A stretch of DNA of 64,000 bases. Source: Fusobacteriaceae bacterium. Its GTDB lineage: Bacteria; Fusobacteriota; Fusobacteriia; Fusobacteriales; Fusobacteriaceae. The notes under the pieces are model-generated. The model was given only the letters and a program-made list of their open reading frames with translations, was not told the origin of the DNA and did no database searches. Positions 19,112-63,346 of the stretch are shown here, piece after piece (the stretch's first letter is position 1; the number at the start of each line of letters is the position of its first letter). The stretch is taken from the NCBI GenBank assembly GCA_031272775.1, contig JAISTB010000005.1, positions 62,001-126,000 on the forward strand, in the 5' to 3' direction. The position numbers and the translations under genes were made by a program.

Positions 19112-19131
19112 ACGGTATCAATTTAACAAAA

Positions 19132-19265
19132 AGAATAGAGGCGCAAATGACAAGAGTAGGCGGATGACCGCCGAAAGGGGATTTTGCCGAAACGGAAGAA
19201 ATTTCGTTGGGAATACAAAGAACATTTGTATTACTGTCATCGGGGGACCGATGGAGAGCTATTCT
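19132..19265 (+). ncRNA. Lysine riboswitch (L-box) aptamer
   Basis: The RNA carries the ordered conserved blocks of the L-box: AGAGGCGC, AAGAGUA, GAAAGGGG, GCCGAA, GGGA, a GGAGAGCUAU 3' strand, and a closing P1 helix AGAAUAG/CUAUUCU (19132-19138 with 19259-19265). The helices P2 (GGCGG/CCGCC), P3 and P4 (AAUACAAA/UUUGUAUU) can all be drawn. It lies upstream of a YfcC-family transporter and is followed by an intrinsic terminator, so lysine should switch the transporter off. Confidence 0.93.
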
Positions 19266-19310
19266 GTGGAATATTGAAAACGAAGTTGCTCCGCAATTTG
19301 TTTTCCCATG

Positions 19311-46533: not shown

Positions 46534-47679
46534 TTAGCGGACAAATTCCTCGATCCGGTCAAAGGCCTCCTTCATGAGACCGAGGTCCAGGGTGCAGGCG
46601 ATCCTGACAAAACCGGGCGTTCCGAAGCCCGCGCCGTCGATGACGTTCACATTGTATTTCCGGAAGAGCTCGTCGGAAAATTCCGTTCCGGACATGCCGG
46701 TCCCCCTGACGTCGGGGAAGAGGTAAATGCCGCCTTGGCTCTTGAAGCATTTCAGCTTGGGCATTTTGGCGATTCTGTCGTAGCAGTAGTCTATCCTTTC
46801 GCGAAAAATGGGGACGTTCTTCGCCCGAATCCGCTCATAGTCCAGCATGGCGTGGTAGGCGGCCCTTTGGGAAGGCGCCGGCGCGCTGTAGACCATGGGT
46901 TCGTTGGCGTATTCCATGACTTCGACGAGCCTGTCCACGACGGAGATCACGTAGCCGACCCGCCAGCCGGTCATGGCGAAATTCTTGCTGTAGCTGCAGA
47001 CGGAGATGCAGCGGTCCTGCATACCCTCTATGGTAATGGCGGGGATAAAAGCCGTGTCGTAGGAATAATAGTCATAGACCTCGTCGGCGATAACCAGCAG
47101 ATCATATTTGACGGCCAGATCCCGGAGGATCTCGAGGCTCTGTCGGCTGTAGCAGACGCCCGAAGGATTGCCCGGCGTATTCATGACGATGGCCTTGGTC
47201 TTCGGCGTAACGGCAGCTTCGATATCTTCCCTGACGAGCTGGAAGTTGTTTTCGAATTTTGTCTGGACAACGACGGGCGTTCCGCCGTTTGCTTTGATTT
47301 GCAGCGCGTAGAGGGGAAAATAGGGCGCCAGCAGAATGACTTCGTCGCCGGGGTTCATGATGGCCAGCATGGTCAGGTACAGACCGTGGGAGGCGCTCGT
47401 CGTGACGAAGATGTCTTTGGGCTCAAATTCATAGTTCGTAAAACATTTTTTGTGGTAGTCGCTGATAAGTTTCCGCAGATCCATGAGCCCCTGCGGGTCC
47501 GTATAGTGCGTATAGCCCGCCTTGGCGTCGGCCATGGCCTTTTCGATGACAATCTCGTCTGTGGTGATGTCGAGATCCCCGATCCCGAGATTGATAAAGG
47601 GCAGTTTGCTTTCCGTTTTCCTGGCGCTCCCCATGGGCCTCGCCAGCACGGCAAATTTGTCTGATATGATCGATCGCAT
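46534..47679 (-). CDS. Class I/II aminotransferase (AspC-like)
   Basis: A 381-residue PLP-dependent fold type I aminotransferase. The PLP lysine is in SYSKNFAMTGWRVGY. NTPGNPSGVCYS, the ADEVYDYYSYD segment and the C-terminal GFVRIACTL arginine complete the site. Likely donors are aspartate or other amino acids with 2-oxoglutarate. It lies downstream of an amino-acid binding protein, with only a stem-loop between, so both are probably controlled by the leader attenuator at 48525-48673. Confidence 0.9.
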   Translation of the reverse strand: MRSIISDKFAVLARPMGSARKTESKLPFINLGIGDLDITTDEIVIEKAMADAKAGYTHYTDPQGLMDLRKLISDYHKKCFTNYEFEPKDIFVTTSASHGLYLTMLAIMNPGDEVILLAPYFPLYALQIKANGGTPVVVQTKFENNFQLVREDIEAAVTPKTKAIVMNTPGNPSGVCYSRQSLEILRDLAVKYDLLVIADEVYDYYSYDTAFIPAITIEGMQDRCISVCSYSKNFAMTGWRVGYVISVVDRLVEVMEYANEPMVYSAPAPSQRAAYHAMLDYERIRAKNVPIFRERIDYCYDRIAKMPKLKCFKSQGGIYLFPDVRGTGMSGTEFSDELFRKYNVNVIDGAGFGTPGFVRIACTLDLGLMKEAFDRIEEFVR

Positions 47680-47706: not shown

Positions 47707-47732
47707 GGTCGGGCGGAAGCGTCCGCCCGACC
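47707..47732 (-). promoter_or_regulatory. G+C-rich stem-loop between binding protein and aminotransferase
   Basis: GGTCGGGCGG/CCGCCCGACC, a perfect 10-bp stem with a 6-base loop. No T-run follows on the minus strand, so it probably protects the upstream binding-protein mRNA or gives partial termination. Confidence 0.65.
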
Positions 47733-48487: not shown

Positions 48488-48517
48488 GATAACCTCCGTC
48501 TGTGATAGAATTTAAGA

Positions 48518-48552
48518 TAAAAAAACACCAATTCCTCTCATAGAATCAGTGT
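48518..48552 (-). terminator. Leader terminator (attenuator candidate) before the binding protein
   Basis: On the minus strand ACACTGATTC pairs fully with GAATTGGTGT (two G-U pairs), loop TATGAGAG, followed by seven T. It lies 59 bases after the leader-peptide stop and 31 bases before the binding-protein start. Its 5' arm can instead pair with CGGTGTC at 48601-48607. Confidence 0.8.
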
Positions 48553-48610
48553 CGGGTACACAAGATCAACGTCGTTTCCGGATGAAAAAAACGCAAAGAA
48601 GACACCGCAT

Positions 48611-48673
48611 CTAATCGAGGATCCTCAGATAAGCGGACCTGTTGTGAACTGCCTTCCTGCGCCTTGCCGTCAT
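48611..48673 (-). CDS. Arginine-rich leader peptide, 20 residues
   Basis: A short frame behind GGGAGG at 6 bases encodes MTARRRKAVHNRSAYLRILD. Five of twenty residues are Arg (codons 4-6, 12 and 17; four are AGG), with one Lys and one His. It lies between a consensus promoter and an intrinsic terminator. The RNA just after its stop (CGGUGUC) can pair with the 5' arm of the terminator, and codons 13-16 can pair with that same RNA (CCGCUUAUC with GAUGCGG). This is the three-way arrangement of transcription attenuation. A ribosome stalled at Arg12 would mask the first strand and favour antitermination. Confidence 0.65.
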   Translation of the reverse strand: MTARRRKAVHNRSAYLRILD

Positions 48674-48721
48674 GATGTTCCTCCCAAAATGGAAATTTTT
48701 TGTCATTTCCGAATAATAGGG

Positions 48722-48750
48722 ATTATAGCCGATCTTTATTTTTTTGTCAA
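48722..48750 (-). promoter_or_regulatory. Promoter of leader peptide-binding protein operon
   Basis: On the minus strand TTGACA, 17 bases, TATAAT: a full consensus promoter. Start predicted near 48715. Confidence 0.88.
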
Positions 48751-48852
48751 TACTTTTATAAAATTTTTCCCCGGGTTTTCCCCAAGTTGTATAAAATCCG
48801 GTGAAAAATGCTCAAAAACGAAACAGGTTTGAAAAAAAATTGCGGGAATAAT

Positions 48853-48891
48853 ACGGAAACAGTTGACAATTTTCCGTTTCTGTATTATAAT
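48853..48891 (+). promoter_or_regulatory. abgT promoter with flanking dyad
   Basis: TTGACA (48863-48868), 17 bases, TATAAT (48886-48891), full consensus. ACGGAAA (48853-48859) and TTTCCGT (48871-48877) flank the -35 box as a dyad, a likely operator. The remaining 5' leader to 49025 shows no structure I recognise. Confidence 0.8.
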
Positions 48892-49024
48892 GGCAAAATA
48901 GTTATTCTTTCATAATTCACATTGATAAACTTTTGTTACACGCGTACCAATTTTAAGGCAATTTTTTACATCTGCACAGGTTTACTTCAAAATTTTACAT
49001 CATGTAGTGAGGAGGGTTTATTTT

Positions 49025-50599
49025 ATGGCAGTAGAAGCAGTACAGAAAAAATCTGTTCTCGACAGATTTTTGAGCGCCGTGGAACGGGTGGGAAACAAAT
49101 TGCCCGATTCCAACTTGTTGTTTATTTTGCTGGCCCTGGCGGTCGCGGTAATTTCAGCGATCTGCGCGGCGGCCAATGTTTCCGCCATTCATCCGGCCAC
49201 AGGGGCCGAGATCAAGGCATGGAGCATTTTGACCAAAGAGGGCATCCGCTGGGCCATCAAGGCCACATTGGTGAATTTCACCGGATTCGCGCCTCTGGGC
49301 GTCGTAATGGTCGCTCTGGTCGGCACCGGCATTGCCGAAAAAAGCAACTTTTTGACGGTATTTATGAGTAAAATCCTTGGATCCGCGCCGCCGAAACTGG
49401 TGACGGCCGCGATCATATTCGTGTCCATCAACGGAAATATGGCCGGCGACTCGGCGTTCGTATTCATGCCGCCTCTGGCCGCCGTCGTGTTCCTGGGTCT
49501 CGGAAGATCTCCGATGCTCGGCATGTACATCGCCTTCGGATCCGTTGCGGCAGGATTCTGCGCGAATCTCTTCATCAACGGCCTTGATTTCCTCATTGCG
49601 CCGCTGACCGCCCAGGCCGCCAAGTTCATCGACCCGGCCTATGAGACCACAGCCGCCAACAACTGGTATTATCTGATCGTTTCCTGTATCCTTTTGACCA
49701 TCGTGGGGACCCTTGTGGCCGAGTACTTCCTGGCCCCCCGCTTTGAAGGCGTGGACATCAGCAAATACAATTTCGACAAATCCATGCTCAACTTGACGCC
49801 CCAGCAGCAGAAAGGACTCAAATGGGCGATTATTTCCCTTGTTCTCGCGATCCTTCTGATCGTTGTCCTCTGTATCGGCAAAGAAGCGCTTTTACGGGAT
49901 GAAAACGGCTCCCTGATTTCTCTGGGATCCACGCTGATGGCGGGGCTTCTGGTTGTGACGACGTTCCTCTTCTTTGTCCCCAGCGCCGTGTACGGCTTCG
50001 TATCGGGACAGTACAAGAGCCACAGGGATCTCTTCAACAGCATGACCGAGGCTTTCAAAGACATGGCCCCCTACGTAATGCTCTGTATCTTCTGCGGACA
50101 GTTTACCGCTTACTTCAACAAGAGCAACCTCGGCGCCATCCTGGCCATCAAGAGCGCGGAGCTGCTCCAGCCCGTAAAACAATATCCGATTCCGCTTTTG
50201 GTGGGTATCGTTATCATTTCCTGCATCGTCAACCTCTTTATCGGTTCCTCCTCGGCCAAATGGACCATCCTGGCCCCGGTATTCGTACCGATGATGATGA
50301 TCCTGGGCTACGACCCGTCTTTGACCCAGATCGCCTACAGAATGGGCGACTCCATCACGAATCCGCTGTCCGTGCTCTTCCCCTATTTCCCGATTCTCTT
50401 GGGAATCGCGCGGCGCTATGAGAAAGAAACCGGCGTCGGCAGCATTGTGGCCAACATGATCCCGATTTCCTTCTGTTTCGGCGTGACCTGGATCGTGCTG
50501 CTCATTATCTGGGTGGTCTTCAAACTGCCGCTGGGACCCGGCGGACAGTTGTTCCTGCCGAACTTCCAGGCTTTGCTTTCGGCGTTCCACTTTGCGTAA
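49025..50599 (+). CDS. abgT: AbgT-family p-aminobenzoyl-glutamate transporter
   Basis: A 524-residue membrane protein with about 12 helices. VGNKLPDSNLLFILLALAV at the N-terminus, TGFAPLGVVMVALVGTGIAE, INGNMAGDSAFVFMPPLAA, GSSSAKWTILAPVFVPM and RMGDSITNPLSVLFPYFPI are AbgT marks. E. coli AbgT imports p-aminobenzoyl-glutamate; other members export sulfonamides. Two M20D hydrolases follow, as in the abg system. The ATG at 49025 has GGAGGG 8 bases upstream; an in-frame ATG 18 bases upstream lacks a site. Confidence 0.93.
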   Translation: MAVEAVQKKSVLDRFLSAVERVGNKLPDSNLLFILLALAVAVISAICAAANVSAIHPATGAEIKAWSILTKEGIRWAIKATLVNFTGFAPLGVVMVALVGTGIAEKSNFLTVFMSKILGSAPPKLVTAAIIFVSINGNMAGDSAFVFMPPLAAVVFLGLGRSPMLGMYIAFGSVAAGFCANLFINGLDFLIAPLTAQAAKFIDPAYETTAANNWYYLIVSCILLTIVGTLVAEYFLAPRFEGVDISKYNFDKSMLNLTPQQQKGLKWAIISLVLAILLIVVLCIGKEALLRDENGSLISLGSTLMAGLLVVTTFLFFVPSAVYGFVSGQYKSHRDLFNSMTEAFKDMAPYVMLCIFCGQFTAYFNKSNLGAILAIKSAELLQPVKQYPIPLLVGIVIISCIVNLFIGSSSAKWTILAPVFVPMMMILGYDPSLTQIAYRMGDSITNPLSVLFPYFPILLGIARRYEKETGVGSIVANMIPISFCFGVTWIVLLIIWVVFKLPLGPGGQLFLPNFQALLSAFHFA

Positions 50600-50657
50600 G
50601 GTCTGCCGGACGCTTGCGCTGTCAAGTCGTGTAAGATTCAATTGAGCATAGCGCATC

Positions 50658-50699
50658 AATTGCCGGGGGATGTTCTTCGAGCCTTTCCCGGCAATTTTT
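50658..50699 (+). terminator. Terminator between abgT and the M20D pair
   Basis: AATTGCCGGG/CCCGGCAATT with a 19-base loop, followed by TTTTT overlapping the stem end. It lies only 24 bases before the next start codon. Confidence 0.75.
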
Positions 50700-50723
50700 G
50701 TGCATTTACCCCACAGGAGGACA

Positions 50724-51917
50724 ATGGACATCAAACAATTGGCGGAAAAATACGAAAACTGGATCATCGGGCGCAGGCGCTGGTATCACGCCCATCCCGA
50801 ACTGACCCGATACGAAGAAAAAACAACGGCGGCTCTGCTCGCTGATATGCGTGAAATGGGCATTACGGATATACAGCCCTTTAAGGAGGGCTGGCACGGC
50901 TTTATTGCCGCGATAAAGGGAAGGGGGCCCGGCGGGACTGTCATGCTCAGGGCCGATATCGACGCCCTTCCCGTAAAAGAAGAGACCGGATTGCCTTTTG
51001 CCTCTGAAAACGAGGGAAAAATGCACGCCTGCGGTCACGACGCCCATATGGCCATGCTTCTGGGCGCGGCAAAAATTCTCCGGGACATCCGGGATGAATT
51101 TCCGGGGACCGTGAAGCTTCTGTTTCAGCCCGCGGAGGAATGGGGACTGGGCGCGCCGGAAGTCATGCGGCAGGGAGGACTCGAGGGCGTAGACGCCCTC
51201 TATGGCGTTCATGTCTGGTCAAGTCTGCCGGCCCTCGCGTTCAATTTTGAATCCGGAGACCGGATGGCGGGCGCGGGTAAGGGAAGCATCGTCATCAAGG
51301 GGGCTGGCGCCCACGGATCCGCCCCCCATCTGGGCCACGACGCCATTGTGGCCGCAAGCGCCGTAGTCATGGGGATCCAGACGATTGTGAGCCGTATGCG
51401 GGATCCGCTGAAGCCGCTTGTGGTCGGCGTCGGTACCATAGAAGGCGGCGAGGGTTACAACATCATTCCCTCCCGCGTGGAAATGAGTCTCACGATTCGT
51501 TTTTACGACGAGACCCTCGGCAGAGCCGTCGGAGAAATGATCCGGGACGTGGCGGAAAGGACAGCCAAAGCCTACGGCTGCGAGGCGGAAGTCAGCTATC
51601 ATTTCGGCGTAAAGCCTCTTAAAAACAGCGCCGCCAATCTTGTCCGGATCGCGCAAGACGCGGTTACCAAACTGTACGGGGAAGAGAGTTTGCTTCCCAT
51701 GGAAAAGCTCACGAGCTCGGAAGATTTTGCCAACTACGGGGAAAAAGTTCCCTATGTCTTCGGTTTTGTGGGCGTACAGAGCCCCGATGTCCCGGGTTCG
51801 GAGCAAAACAACCACAACAAGTGTTTCACGGTGGACGAGCGAATCCTCTCGCGGGGGGCTGCGGTCGCGGCGCAGTTCGCGCGGGATTATCTCAAAGAAA
51901 GCGGGGTGGAAAAATGA
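50724..51917 (+). CDS. M20D amidohydrolase (AbgA/hippuricase-like), first of pair
   Basis: A 397-residue zinc hydrolase of the M20D family (N-acyl-amino-acid amidohydrolases). Metal ligands lie in MHACGHDAHMAML (about 98-110), FQPAEEWGLGAPE and near the C-terminus. RRRWYHAHPELTRYE and the lid histidine region GAGAHGSAPHLGHDAI are typical. With AbgT upstream and a paralogue downstream, a role in cleaving p-aminobenzoyl-glutamate or another N-acyl amino acid is plausible. AGGAGG lies only 3-4 bases before the ATG. An apparent terminator sits between abgT and this gene. Confidence 0.92.
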   Translation: MDIKQLAEKYENWIIGRRRWYHAHPELTRYEEKTTAALLADMREMGITDIQPFKEGWHGFIAAIKGRGPGGTVMLRADIDALPVKEETGLPFASENEGKMHACGHDAHMAMLLGAAKILRDIRDEFPGTVKLLFQPAEEWGLGAPEVMRQGGLEGVDALYGVHVWSSLPALAFNFESGDRMAGAGKGSIVIKGAGAHGSAPHLGHDAIVAASAVVMGIQTIVSRMRDPLKPLVVGVGTIEGGEGYNIIPSRVEMSLTIRFYDETLGRAVGEMIRDVAERTAKAYGCEAEVSYHFGVKPLKNSAANLVRIAQDAVTKLYGEESLLPMEKLTSSEDFANYGEKVPYVFGFVGVQSPDVPGSEQNNHNKCFTVDERILSRGAAVAAQFARDYLKESGVEK

Positions 51918-53101
51918 CGGATATCGGAAAACTCGCCGGAGTGGCGAAAGATTATATCATTGAGCGGAGACGCTGGTACCACAGTCATCCGGAGCTCTCC
52001 TTCAAGGAAGAAAAAACCACGGAGGCCATAATTTCTGATCTCAAGGCCCTCGGCATTACGGAAATCACGCCCATGACCGGCGGCTGGTACGGCTGCGTCG
52101 GCGTCATCGAAGGGAGAAAAGAGGGCCCCACGGTACTGCTGCGGGCGGATATCGACGCCCTTCCGGTCACGGAAGAAAGCGGGTTGCCCTACGCCTCACA
52201 AAATCCAGGCGTTATGCACGCCTGCGGGCATGATACGCATATCGCCATGCTCCTGGGCGCGGCCAAAATCCTGCAAAGCGTCCGGGCGGAACTCCCGGGC
52301 AGGGTAAAGCTCCTGTTTCAGCCGGCCGAAGAATTTGTCAGCGGCGCCAAGGAAGTCATCCGGCAGGGATTTTTGGACGACGTGAACGCCTGCTACGGCG
52401 TACACATCAACTCGGTCCTGCCCTCGGGGGCCTTTGATTTTTGTGAAGGGGAGCGCATGGCCGCCGGAGACGGTCTGAAGATTACCGTGGAAGGCATGAG
52501 CGCCCACGGGTCGGCCCCTCATCTGGGCCATGACGCCATCGTGGCGGCGGGCGCGATCATCGGCGGCGTTCAGGCCGTCGTCAGTCGCTTCAACAACCCG
52601 CTTTCCCCTCTTGTCGTCACACTGGGGACGATCCACGGCGGGCAGCGGGCCAACATTATCCCCCAAAAAGTCGTTATGGAAGGGACCGTCCGCTATTTCG
52701 ACCGGAATCTAATGACCAAGGTCATCGACGAAATCAAACAGGTGACGGAAAACATGGCCGCCGCCTACGGTTGCGCGGGATCTGTGGAGTACAGGCACGG
52801 CGTCGATCCCCTGAGCAATACGGACAAGCGTCTTGTGGAGCTTGCCCGAGGGGCCGTCACGAAACTTTTCGGGAAGGACAAGCTCATTGACCTTGAAAAA
52901 AATACCGGCGGGGAAGATTTTTCCTTTTATATGGACAAGGTCCCCGGCGTTTTCGGCAATGTGGGGGCAAGATCCGACGCGATTCCCGAGTCGGCCCTGA
53001 GCCTTCATCACGAAAAATTCTCGCCCGACGAGGAGGCCCTCGCCAAAGGCGCGGCGGTGGCGGCGCAATTTGCCGTGGATTACCTCGCGGCCGGAAAATA
53101 A
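51914..53101 (+). CDS. M20D amidohydrolase, second of pair
   Basis: A 395-residue paralogue of the preceding gene with the same blocks: RRRWYHSHPELSFKEEKTTE, MHACGHDTHIAMLLGAAKIL, FQPAEEFVSGAKEV and SAHGSAPHLGHDAIVAAGA. It overlaps the first copy by 4 bases (ATGA), so the two are translationally coupled and could form a heterodimer, as E. coli AbgA and AbgB do. The sequences differ enough that the duplication is not recent. The ATG at 51914 follows GGGGTGG. Confidence 0.92.
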   Translation: MTDIGKLAGVAKDYIIERRRWYHSHPELSFKEEKTTEAIISDLKALGITEITPMTGGWYGCVGVIEGRKEGPTVLLRADIDALPVTEESGLPYASQNPGVMHACGHDTHIAMLLGAAKILQSVRAELPGRVKLLFQPAEEFVSGAKEVIRQGFLDDVNACYGVHINSVLPSGAFDFCEGERMAAGDGLKITVEGMSAHGSAPHLGHDAIVAAGAIIGGVQAVVSRFNNPLSPLVVTLGTIHGGQRANIIPQKVVMEGTVRYFDRNLMTKVIDEIKQVTENMAAAYGCAGSVEYRHGVDPLSNTDKRLVELARGAVTKLFGKDKLIDLEKNTGGEDFSFYMDKVPGVFGNVGARSDAIPESALSLHHEKFSPDEEALAKGAAVAAQFAVDYLAAGK

Positions 53102-61974: not shown

Positions 61975-63346
61975 AACTTTCCTCCTTCGCTTTCTCCTTC
62001 AAGACCGTCCGCAGAGCCCAGATCCCCATGGGGACCGAAAGCAGGAACGTACAGACGTCGGCTACCGGAATGCAGAGCTGGATGCCGAGGACGCCCAGGG
62101 CGGGGACGAGCGTATAAAGCAGCGGGATCAGGAAAAAGCCCTGCCGGGCGAAGGCCAGAATGCTGGCGGGAATGGCTTTTCCTATGGTCTGGAGCATCAT
62201 GTTGTTTAAAATAATCCAGGCAAAGAGCGGGTAGGTCAGACTCTGGAAGCGCAAAGCCAGCGCCCCCACCCGGATTACCTCGGCGTCGTCTTTCCGGAAG
62301 AGGGCGATAATCTTCGGAGAGAAGATAAAGGCCGCCGCGCCCAAGAAAACCAGGAAGATGACCGCGGTCCTCAGGCAGACCCAAAAGGCCTTCTTTACCC
62401 GGTCATAGCGTCCGGCGCCGTAATTGAAGCCGCAGACGGGCTGAAACCCCTGTCCGAGGCCCAAAAGGGCCGAATTGGACATCAGGAAAATCCGGTTGAC
62501 GATGGCCACCGCCGCGATAACCGCGTCTCCGTAAGCGCCCGCCGCGTGATTCAAAAGGATCGTCGCGATGCTCTGGAGGCCCTGCCGGAGGAGCGAGGGA
62601 AAGCCGCCCCGGATCATTTCCCGGTAGACCCAGAACGAAGGAGAGAAAGCCTTTACGCGGATCCGCACATTTCCCGGGGCCGAATTGCAACCGACCACGA
62701 AGAGCAGAAGACAGCTGAGCGTCTGGCTGATCATGGTCGCGAGAGCCGCGCCTTTGACGCCCATGCCGAACGTGAAAATAAAAAGCGGATCGAGACCGAT
62801 ATTGAGGATTGCCCCGGAGACCATGCCGATCATCCCGAAAAAGGCACTCCCCTGAAAGCGGAGCAGATTGTTCAGCATCAGAGACGAGACCATGAAGGGC
62901 GCGCCCAAAAGGATATAGCGCAGATAATCCTTGGCGTAGGGGAGGATGGTCTCCGTGGCGCCCAGGGTCCTGGCCAGAGGCGTGAGGAAGATCGAGCCCG
63001 CCGCGAGAATGCAACAGCCGATGAAAAAGGCCGTGATAAAACCCGTAGCCGCCATTTTTTCGGCGTCTTCCATCTTGCGGGCGCCCAGCGCCCGGGAAAT
63101 ATAATTGCCGGAGCCGTGGCCCGTAAAAAAGCCCACGGCCTGGATGATATTCATCAGGGAAAAGGTGATGCCCACGCCGCCGGTGGCGCTTGTCCCCAGA
63201 GCGCTTACAAAATACGTGTCCGCCATGTTGTACAGGGCCGACACGAGCATGATGACCATGGTCGGAATGGCCATTTTGACGAGCAGTCTCCCGACCGGAG
63301 CCGTCGTCATCAGGAGAAATTTCTCGTCCTGGGCTTTGTCTTTCAT
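61973..63346 (-). CDS. MATE family multidrug exporter
   Basis: A 457-residue, 12-helix transporter of the MATE family (MepA/DinF side), exporting drugs or cationic metabolites against Na+ or H+. AIPTMVIMLVSALYNMADTYFVS at the N-terminus and the repeat-half signature GLGQGFQPVCGFNYGAGRYDRV are diagnostic. The start at 63346 has AAGGAG about 10 bases upstream. A weak TGGACA...TAAACT promoter with 17-base spacing lies before it. Confidence 0.92.
   Translation of the reverse strand: MKDKAQDEKFLLMTTAPVGRLLVKMAIPTMVIMLVSALYNMADTYFVSALGTSATGGVGITFSLMNIIQAVGFFTGHGSGNYISRALGARKMEDAEKMAATGFITAFFIGCCILAAGSIFLTPLARTLGATETILPYAKDYLRYILLGAPFMVSSLMLNNLLRFQGSAFFGMIGMVSGAILNIGLDPLFIFTFGMGVKGAALATMISQTLSCLLLFVVGCNSAPGNVRIRVKAFSPSFWVYREMIRGGFPSLLRQGLQSIATILLNHAAGAYGDAVIAAVAIVNRIFLMSNSALLGLGQGFQPVCGFNYGAGRYDRVKKAFWVCLRTAVIFLVFLGAAAFIFSPKIIALFRKDDAEVIRVGALALRFQSLTYPLFAWIILNNMMLQTIGKAIPASILAFARQGFFLIPLLYTLVPALGVLGIQLCIPVADVCTFLLSVPMGIWALRTVLKEKAKEES

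Follow-up and report, generated by a model that had tools for sequence, protein, structure and literature searches.

The 64,000-nucleotide stretch analyzed here, positions 62,001 to 126,000 of contig JAISTB010000005.1 from a Fusobacteriaceae bacterium (hereafter the window), carries a short, arginine-rich leader peptide frame and an intrinsic terminator upstream of a gene for a family 3 solute-binding protein. With a probability that we put at about 0.84, this leader is a classical ribosome-mediated transcription attenuator responding to arginine supply, and the same device runs an arginine regulon in the family Fusobacteriaceae. This view rests on the anatomy of the leader, on its conservation and the compensatory changes in its RNA, on biased codon use, on the arginine genes linked to it and on folding calculations in which the outcome depends on where the ribosome stands.

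Leader Anatomy and Alternative RNA Pairings

All elements of the locus lie on the minus strand, in the order promoter, Shine-Dalgarno site, leader open reading frame (ORF), terminator and, finally, the Shine-Dalgarno site and start codon (48487) of the binding-protein gene (Table 1). The initial annotation of this DNA, made from the sequence alone, had described a consensus promoter and a 20-codon frame with a good ribosome site and five Arg codons (codons 4–6, 12 and 17), and the sequence bears out both descriptions. A short ORF that has its own Shine-Dalgarno site and is predicted to be translated is found between the promoter and the first gene, as in attenuators. The terminator (48553-48524) likewise sits where it had been placed, with 12 pairs (G-U included) instead of the 10 first counted, and folds with -12.0 kcal/mol. 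Of 42 gene starts inspected across the window, only that of the binding-protein gene was preceded by a Shine-Dalgarno site, short ORF and terminator in succession. Taken by itself, the window leader folds with no unusual stability (z = -0.28), so that its total stability is not used as evidence here, while conservation and the effect of ribosome position are. A small hairpin (GGAAAU/AUUUCC, 48691-48710, minus strand) is also present in the leader RNA, directly 5′ of the Shine-Dalgarno site.

In the fold computed without a ribosome, the Arg4–6 cluster is paired just 3′ of the stop codon, and codons 13–17 (48636-48625) are paired with 48614-48605. The second of these pairings had been foreseen for codons 13–16, but the first, a stronger helix that sequesters the Arg codons (48665-48650 with 48604-48588), had been overlooked; in this modeled fold the main sequestering helix is predicted to have the Arg4–6 cluster itself as one of its two strands. 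The core of the antiterminator, a 7-bp helix between 48607-48601 (CGGUGUC) and the terminator 5′ arm at 48553-48547 (GACACUG), agrees with the initial annotation, which nevertheless missed its extension across the stop codon (UAGA with UCUA). In full, the antiterminator 5′ strand is UAGA-UG-CGGUGUC (48613-48601) extended by CUCG (48619-48616), and the 3′ strand is GACACUG-AU-UCUA (48553-48541) extended by UGAG. Antiterminator and terminator share the terminator 5′ arm and loop, and the two states are mutually exclusive.

Table 1. Features of the attenuator locus and its genes in the window.
Feature	Position	Strand	Basis or remark
Sigma-70 type promoter of the leader transcript, TTGACA-17-TATAAT	48722..48750	-	consensus match 12/12
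Shine-Dalgarno site of the leader peptide, GGGAGGA	48679..48685	-	sequence
Leader peptide ORF MTARRRKAVHNRSAYLRILD, 20 codons, stop TAG	48611..48673	-	
Leader Arg codons	4 (AGG, 48664-48662), 5 (CGC), 6 (AGG, 48658-48656), 12 (AGG, 48640-48638), 17 (AGG, 48625-48623)	-	
Strand 1 (Arg codons, codons 3–8)	48650..48665	-	pairs with 48604-48588; minimum-energy fold
Strand 1b (codons 13–17)	48625..48636	-	pairs with 48614-48605; fold
Strand 2 (leader end, stop codon, post-stop RNA)	48588..48619	-	fold computed for a ribosome at Arg6; compensatory changes across three genomes
Antiterminator 5′ side (CUCG, UAGA, CGGUGUC)	48619-48601	-	part of strand 2
Strand 3 (terminator 5′ arm and loop, antiterminator 3′ side: GACACUG, UCUA, UGAG)	48537..48553	-	
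Intrinsic terminator GACACTGATTCT-ATGAGA-GGAATTGGTGTT, then TTTTTAT	48524..48553	-	folding
Family 3 solute-binding protein, 241 aa	47762..48487	-	PF00497, 137 bits
Class I/II aminotransferase, presumed second operon gene	46534..47679	-	PF00155, 211 bits

Effect of the Ribosome Position

Pairing was computed with a ribosome-sized stretch of the leader RNA blocked at each codon. Without a ribosome, the window terminator has a probability of 0.95; placing the A site on Arg4, Arg5 or Arg6 lowers it to 0.76, 0.71 or 0.39, from Lys7 to Ala14 (Arg12 included) it is ≤0.01, and from Tyr15 to Asp20 it is back at 0.95. The initial claim that a stall at Arg12 favors antitermination is thus reproduced in silico, the terminator there dropping below 0.01, and, given the low terminator probability at Arg6 and Arg12, stalling there would give read-through and finishing the leader would give termination. 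Across 28 non-redundant leaders of the family, a ribosome placed on the last early Arg codon raises pairing between the terminator 5′ arm and the upstream RNA by 0.243 on average, against -0.002 for dinucleotide shuffles of the intervening RNA (sd 0.029, maximum 0.052 over 40 sets). The gain stays near 0.24 up to one or two codons beyond the Arg codon, is about 0.11 or less from four codons on and amounts to 0.056 at the stop codon, and in 23 of the 28 leaders the early Arg position outscores the final third. In several leaders of the ArgG (argininosuccinate synthase) class, it is leader codons 22–25 that pair with the terminator 5′ arm. Within the model, a stall at the control codons would hence favor the antiterminator, and completion of the leader the terminator.

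We infer that the leader is translated, that ribosomes stall on it when charged tRNA-Arg is scarce, and that the response has the following direction. RNA polymerase would start near 48715, and a ribosome would follow along the leader ORF. With ample charged tRNA-Arg, this ribosome would pass codon 14 and reach the stop codon, upon which the Arg-codon strand would re-pair with the post-stop strand and the terminator would form before the binding-protein gene. Under arginine shortage, the ribosome would wait at Arg4–6 or Arg12, masking strand 1 (and 1b); the stop/post-stop strand would then pair with the terminator 5′ arm, and transcription would read through into the binding-protein and aminotransferase genes. 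Built from other leader sequences, the same device would act on binding proteins, ArgG, dimethylargininase and complete ATP-binding cassette (ABC) transporters across Fusobacteriaceae, a family in whose 61 genomes the search for ArgR gave no match above cut-off.

Conservation Within the Genus

Two genomes of the same genus carry the leaders MRARRKNLHNMTDSFRILL and MFTRRIRNLTQYKRIFLRIHL before orthologous genes for the binding protein and the aminotransferase, and the order of these two genes is the same in G001 and G002, the same-genus genomes in which the counterpart of the strand 1 pairing is also re-formed. Arg accounts for 14 of the 57 residues in the three same-genus leaders (background 5.8%, p = 3e-6), and the Arg residue is retained in this genus through CGC, CGU or AGG. 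When the antiterminator is followed across the three genomes, 32 of 33 cells pair, corresponding to 97% for the true register versus 33–55% for slid pairings, and three pairs have changed on both sides (C-G to U-A twice, U-A to C-G once). Both the Arg codons and the compensatory changes that the initial annotation had proposed to look for in orthologous leaders are present in the same-genus genomes. The window has 53.7% G+C and G002 is visibly AT-rich at the same locus, an unusual spread for one genus.

Arg-Codon Leaders in Other Genera of the Family

The 61 Fusobacteriaceae genomes were searched for orthologues and paralogues of the binding protein, and the upstream regions of these were inspected. 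Among the leaders that precede these genes are MLFKNLRSMPQLNIFNIFLYKRIL, MLRHLRRSNLQLNNYFCSKKSVFLKSF and MLRNLRNTKQLNKFVILRDSRLNCFIL, all three accompanied by a promoter, a Shine-Dalgarno site and a terminator; altogether 49 leaders stand before binding-protein or transporter operons, all of them with an early AGG Arg codon and an intrinsic terminator, and leaders are present in nine genera (g1, g2, g4, g6, g8, g9, g11, g12 and g13). The operons behind them contain ArgG, dimethylargininase, a racemase, a dehydrogenase together with an aminotransferase, or a complete ABC transporter. A pattern search for AGG added operons of a binding protein and argininosuccinate synthase as well as permease-ATPase-binding protein operons. 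The ArgG proteins encoded behind binding proteins score 592-596 bits with NF001770 (cut-off 334), and another leader-linked binding-protein gene is followed by a dimethylargininase-like gene at 361 bits, below the strict cut-off of 450.

The search for AGG pairs gave real members together with many chance matches inside genes, and the statistics reported below therefore come from sets not selected by AGG. A second pattern, allowing mismatches and run over the whole order, yielded two further clear leaders, in G066 and in G010 (before a permease gene), and chance matches too, none of them convincing beyond the family; a search of genome contigs returned distant relatives only. By an independent route, ArgG and dimethylargininase were searched across the order and the upstream regions of their operons inspected without an Arg criterion. 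Within genera g4, g6, g8, g11 and g13, almost all binding protein-ArgG operons proved to have a leader with Shine-Dalgarno site and early Arg codons, followed by a terminator, and so did four dimethylargininase operons. The genome of the window itself has a second such leader, MKGSGFARQRKTVAYKRP, on contig 17 of G000 before a binding protein-ArgG operon. When 104 genes from the neighborhoods of the relatives were scanned mechanically, again without an Arg criterion, the arrangement turned up before 15; 13 of these encode arginine-type binding proteins or permeases, and the other two have very short ORFs without AGG. One of the leaders from another genome of the family is also present, at the same coordinates, in a public plasmid record of Cetobacterium somerae (Fusobacteriota; Fusobacteriaceae), where it is unannotated.

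The initial annotation had named orthologous leaders devoid of both the peptide and the alternative pairings as the observation that would speak against it. What was found is that, in nine genera, orthologues and paralogous arginine operons keep the Arg-codon leader and the intrinsic terminator, with an antiterminator that on average competes with the latter. Its framing of the leader as the control of one orphan binding protein proved too narrow, since the leaders of the family cover an arginine regulon that includes ArgG.

Several operons seen in this survey deserve mention of their own. At L080, L082, L083, L084, L085 and L086, a conserved Arg-leader operon encodes a binding protein, a glycerol-dehydrogenase-like alcohol dehydrogenase and an aminotransferase, perhaps for transamination of arginine followed by reduction; of this operon, the window's genus retains only the aminotransferase behind the binding protein. 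At L087, L088, L089 and L173, an alanine-racemase-like gene, whose product might conceivably act on arginine or ornithine, comes after a second Arg-leader binding protein; in Cetobacterium somerae this pair lies on a plasmid. Tandem binding-protein genes occur at L162, L163, L164 and L170 with an amidohydrolase, ArgH and in some cases ArgF/ArgG; these loci are without Arg leaders and have a strong terminator hairpin between genes.

Arginine as the Probable Sensed Amino Acid

In the sets of leaders not chosen by Arg content, AGG occurs within codons 2–12 in 10/10 leaders linked to binding proteins and in 17/17 linked to ArgG or dimethylargininase, and the enrichment of Arg in these codons over a background of 2.9% has p = 1e-12 and p = 5e-20, respectively. 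AGG makes up 72-75% of the leader Arg codons versus 6.7% in neighboring genes, and a rare cognate codon would suit a sensitive attenuator. A search for the arginine repressor ArgR (PF01316) gave no match above cut-off in any of the 61 family genomes, compared with matches in 8 of 14 control genomes. Judged from their sequences, the presumed targets belong to arginine metabolism: ArgG, dimethylargininase-like proteins and Lys/Arg-type binding proteins.

Three other explanations have to be weighed against an attenuator that reads arginine supply. The leader could encode a nascent-chain arrest peptide, on which arginine, another small molecule or a drug would stall the ribosome (compare the RLR-type resistance leaders), and high ligand could then induce the operon; we regard this as unlikely. 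Conservation within a leader class does extend to residues other than Arg (LRNRKY among ArgG-class leaders, LRNxxxLN among those of the binding-protein class), and some leaders hold R-x-L-R or RRLR, an RLR leader being known before hflX in Bacillales (PMC8632094), but much of this within-class conservation falls in RNA strands 1 and 2. Compared between classes (ARRRK, LRNLRN, LRNRKY, RRILRT, RKRNSQRFQSNRR), the leaders have Arg codons in common and little else, which favors sensing of charged tRNA over nascent-chain arrest; moreover, the downstream genes serve the import or synthesis of arginine, in keeping with operons induced by starvation. Less credible again is an ordinary 5′ region in which the small ORF is incidental and the terminator is constitutive or otherwise regulated, by a protein or by an RNA ligand as in a T-box or riboswitch. 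Coupling of a terminator with an antiterminator is indeed also typical of T-boxes and riboswitches, yet no Rfam family, T-box included, matched the window leader or 20 leader loci at the gathering score, the ORF, its Shine-Dalgarno site and its Arg codons are retained in every leader while most other sequence varies, and the antiterminator gain varies with ribosome position. That the early AGG codons are merely a hairpin arm and that Leu, Asn or Lys is the codon sensed is the least probable of all, for even though AGG pairs with the UCCU of strand 2 in many members and Leu is likewise common in codons 2–12, the window's genus keeps the Arg residue with synonymous codons, Leu makes up about 9% of residues generally and is mostly encoded by the common codon TTA, and the operons behind the leaders are arginine operons.

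Some results nevertheless weigh against the arginine attenuator or limit its reach. The antiterminator covariation, with three sequences, fails to beat column shuffles (81/500), and hence supports the antiterminator and does not prove it. G013, G029, G034c and G079e show no pairing gain at the early Arg codon (about zero or negative), and in G021e and G069f a late gain is as large as that at early Arg. In most AT-rich relatives the finished terminator is still favored at equilibrium, so that the attenuation model needs kinetic folding. Part of the AGG bias could come from pairing with UCCU instead of rarity. Finally, the ArgG clusters of G004, G017, G038, G036, G024, G031, G026 and G008 are without such a leader; in these clusters the arginine genes are differently arranged.

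Relation to Known Attenuators

Classical attenuators control the his, trp, leu, thr and ilv operons of Escherichia coli and Salmonella. The Fusobacteriaceae leaders resemble these in being rich in the regulated amino acid, in having mutually exclusive 1:2, 2:3 and 3:4 pairings and in ending with an intrinsic terminator. They differ in using Arg codons, with the rare AGG, and in their targets, which are orphan binding proteins, ArgG, dimethylargininase and whole ABC transporters. In the window's genus strand 2 spans the leader stop and the RNA that follows, whereas in other Fusobacteriaceae genera it is inside the leader. The T-box antiterminators of arginine genes in Firmicutes respond to uncharged tRNA-Arg by binding the tRNA directly, with no leader peptide; the Fusobacteriaceae leaders, by contrast, have a leader peptide and no T-box match. 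ArgR/AhrC regulons likewise couple arginine uptake and biosynthesis to arginine supply, but do so through a DNA-binding protein.

The closest described case is the speF leader of Salmonella, where two consecutive Arg codons of orf34 sense arginine and pausing without arginine favors the productive RNA structure, with ornithine decarboxylase being governed through Rho-dependent termination, exposure of the ribosome-binding site and RNase G decay (PMC6386406). Differently from speF, the Fusobacteriaceae leaders have intrinsic terminators, stand before arginine acquisition genes and encode unrelated peptides. The uORFC-6-1 motif, an upstream ORF with Arg-Leu-Arg inside a conserved RNA structure, is found in Bacillales before hflX and is thought to be antibiotic-responsive (PMC8632094); unlike the leaders described here, it is not placed before arginine genes. 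The open-access literature gave no earlier report for the arginine specificity or the phylum, which is not proof of absence. The mechanism class is thus already known, and the arginine specificity and the occurrence in Fusobacteriota appear to be unreported.

We consider it likely that Fusobacteriaceae, a family lacking ArgR, run their arginine homeostasis by family-wide arginine leader attenuators, with a separately tuned copy for every orphan binding protein, ArgG operon, dimethylargininase operon and whole ABC transporter. These would constitute the first attenuator regulon with Arg codons and intrinsic terminators to be described, and likewise the first described ribosome-mediated attenuation in the phylum. 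Such a system would give a concrete answer to how arginine acquisition is controlled in this family without ArgR, and would add arginine and a further phylum to the known range of ribosome-mediated attenuation. Because the leader would mark them, the binding proteins that serve arginine could also be told from their many look-alikes. One report describes oral biofilms containing Fusobacterium nucleatum as being shaped by ornithine cross-feeding from arginine metabolism (PMC4571851), and the arginine switch may for this reason matter for the responses of Fusobacteriaceae to their neighbors.

The Binding Protein and Neighboring Genes

The best NCBIfam match of the window binding protein is TIGR01096 (Lys/Arg/ornithine binding; 166 bits, below the cut-off of 256), and the protein is nearest to Lys/Arg/ornithine, Gln and Arg binding proteins while remaining under every curated cut-off. 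Its nearest solved chains are AncQR 4zv1 and the amino-acid-binding protein 6svf, which we take to be the Thermotoga arginine-binding protein. In the alignment to chain 6svf, the E of TNAE falls opposite the acidic residue of the SADF stretch; arginine is the probable ligand. Since no ABC permease or ATPase gene lies beside it, the binding protein is called an orphan, as the initial annotation had it. A longer antisense ORF overlaps its gene.

An 11-bp GC-rich hairpin (47707-47732) separates the binding-protein and aminotransferase genes, and a similar one exists in G001; as no T run follows in the direction of transcription, this hairpin may have a protective role for the mRNA upstream of it. 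Another perfect TTGACA-17-TATAAT promoter (48863-48891, plus strand) is divergent from the leader and precedes a gene for an AbgT-family transporter and two M20-type peptidase/amidohydrolase-like genes (49007-53101, plus strand). Further away, at 19128-19269 on the plus strand, the window contains a lysine riboswitch aptamer (98.7 bits), so that within the same genome a lysine-type gene is found under a riboswitch and arginine genes under leader peptides.
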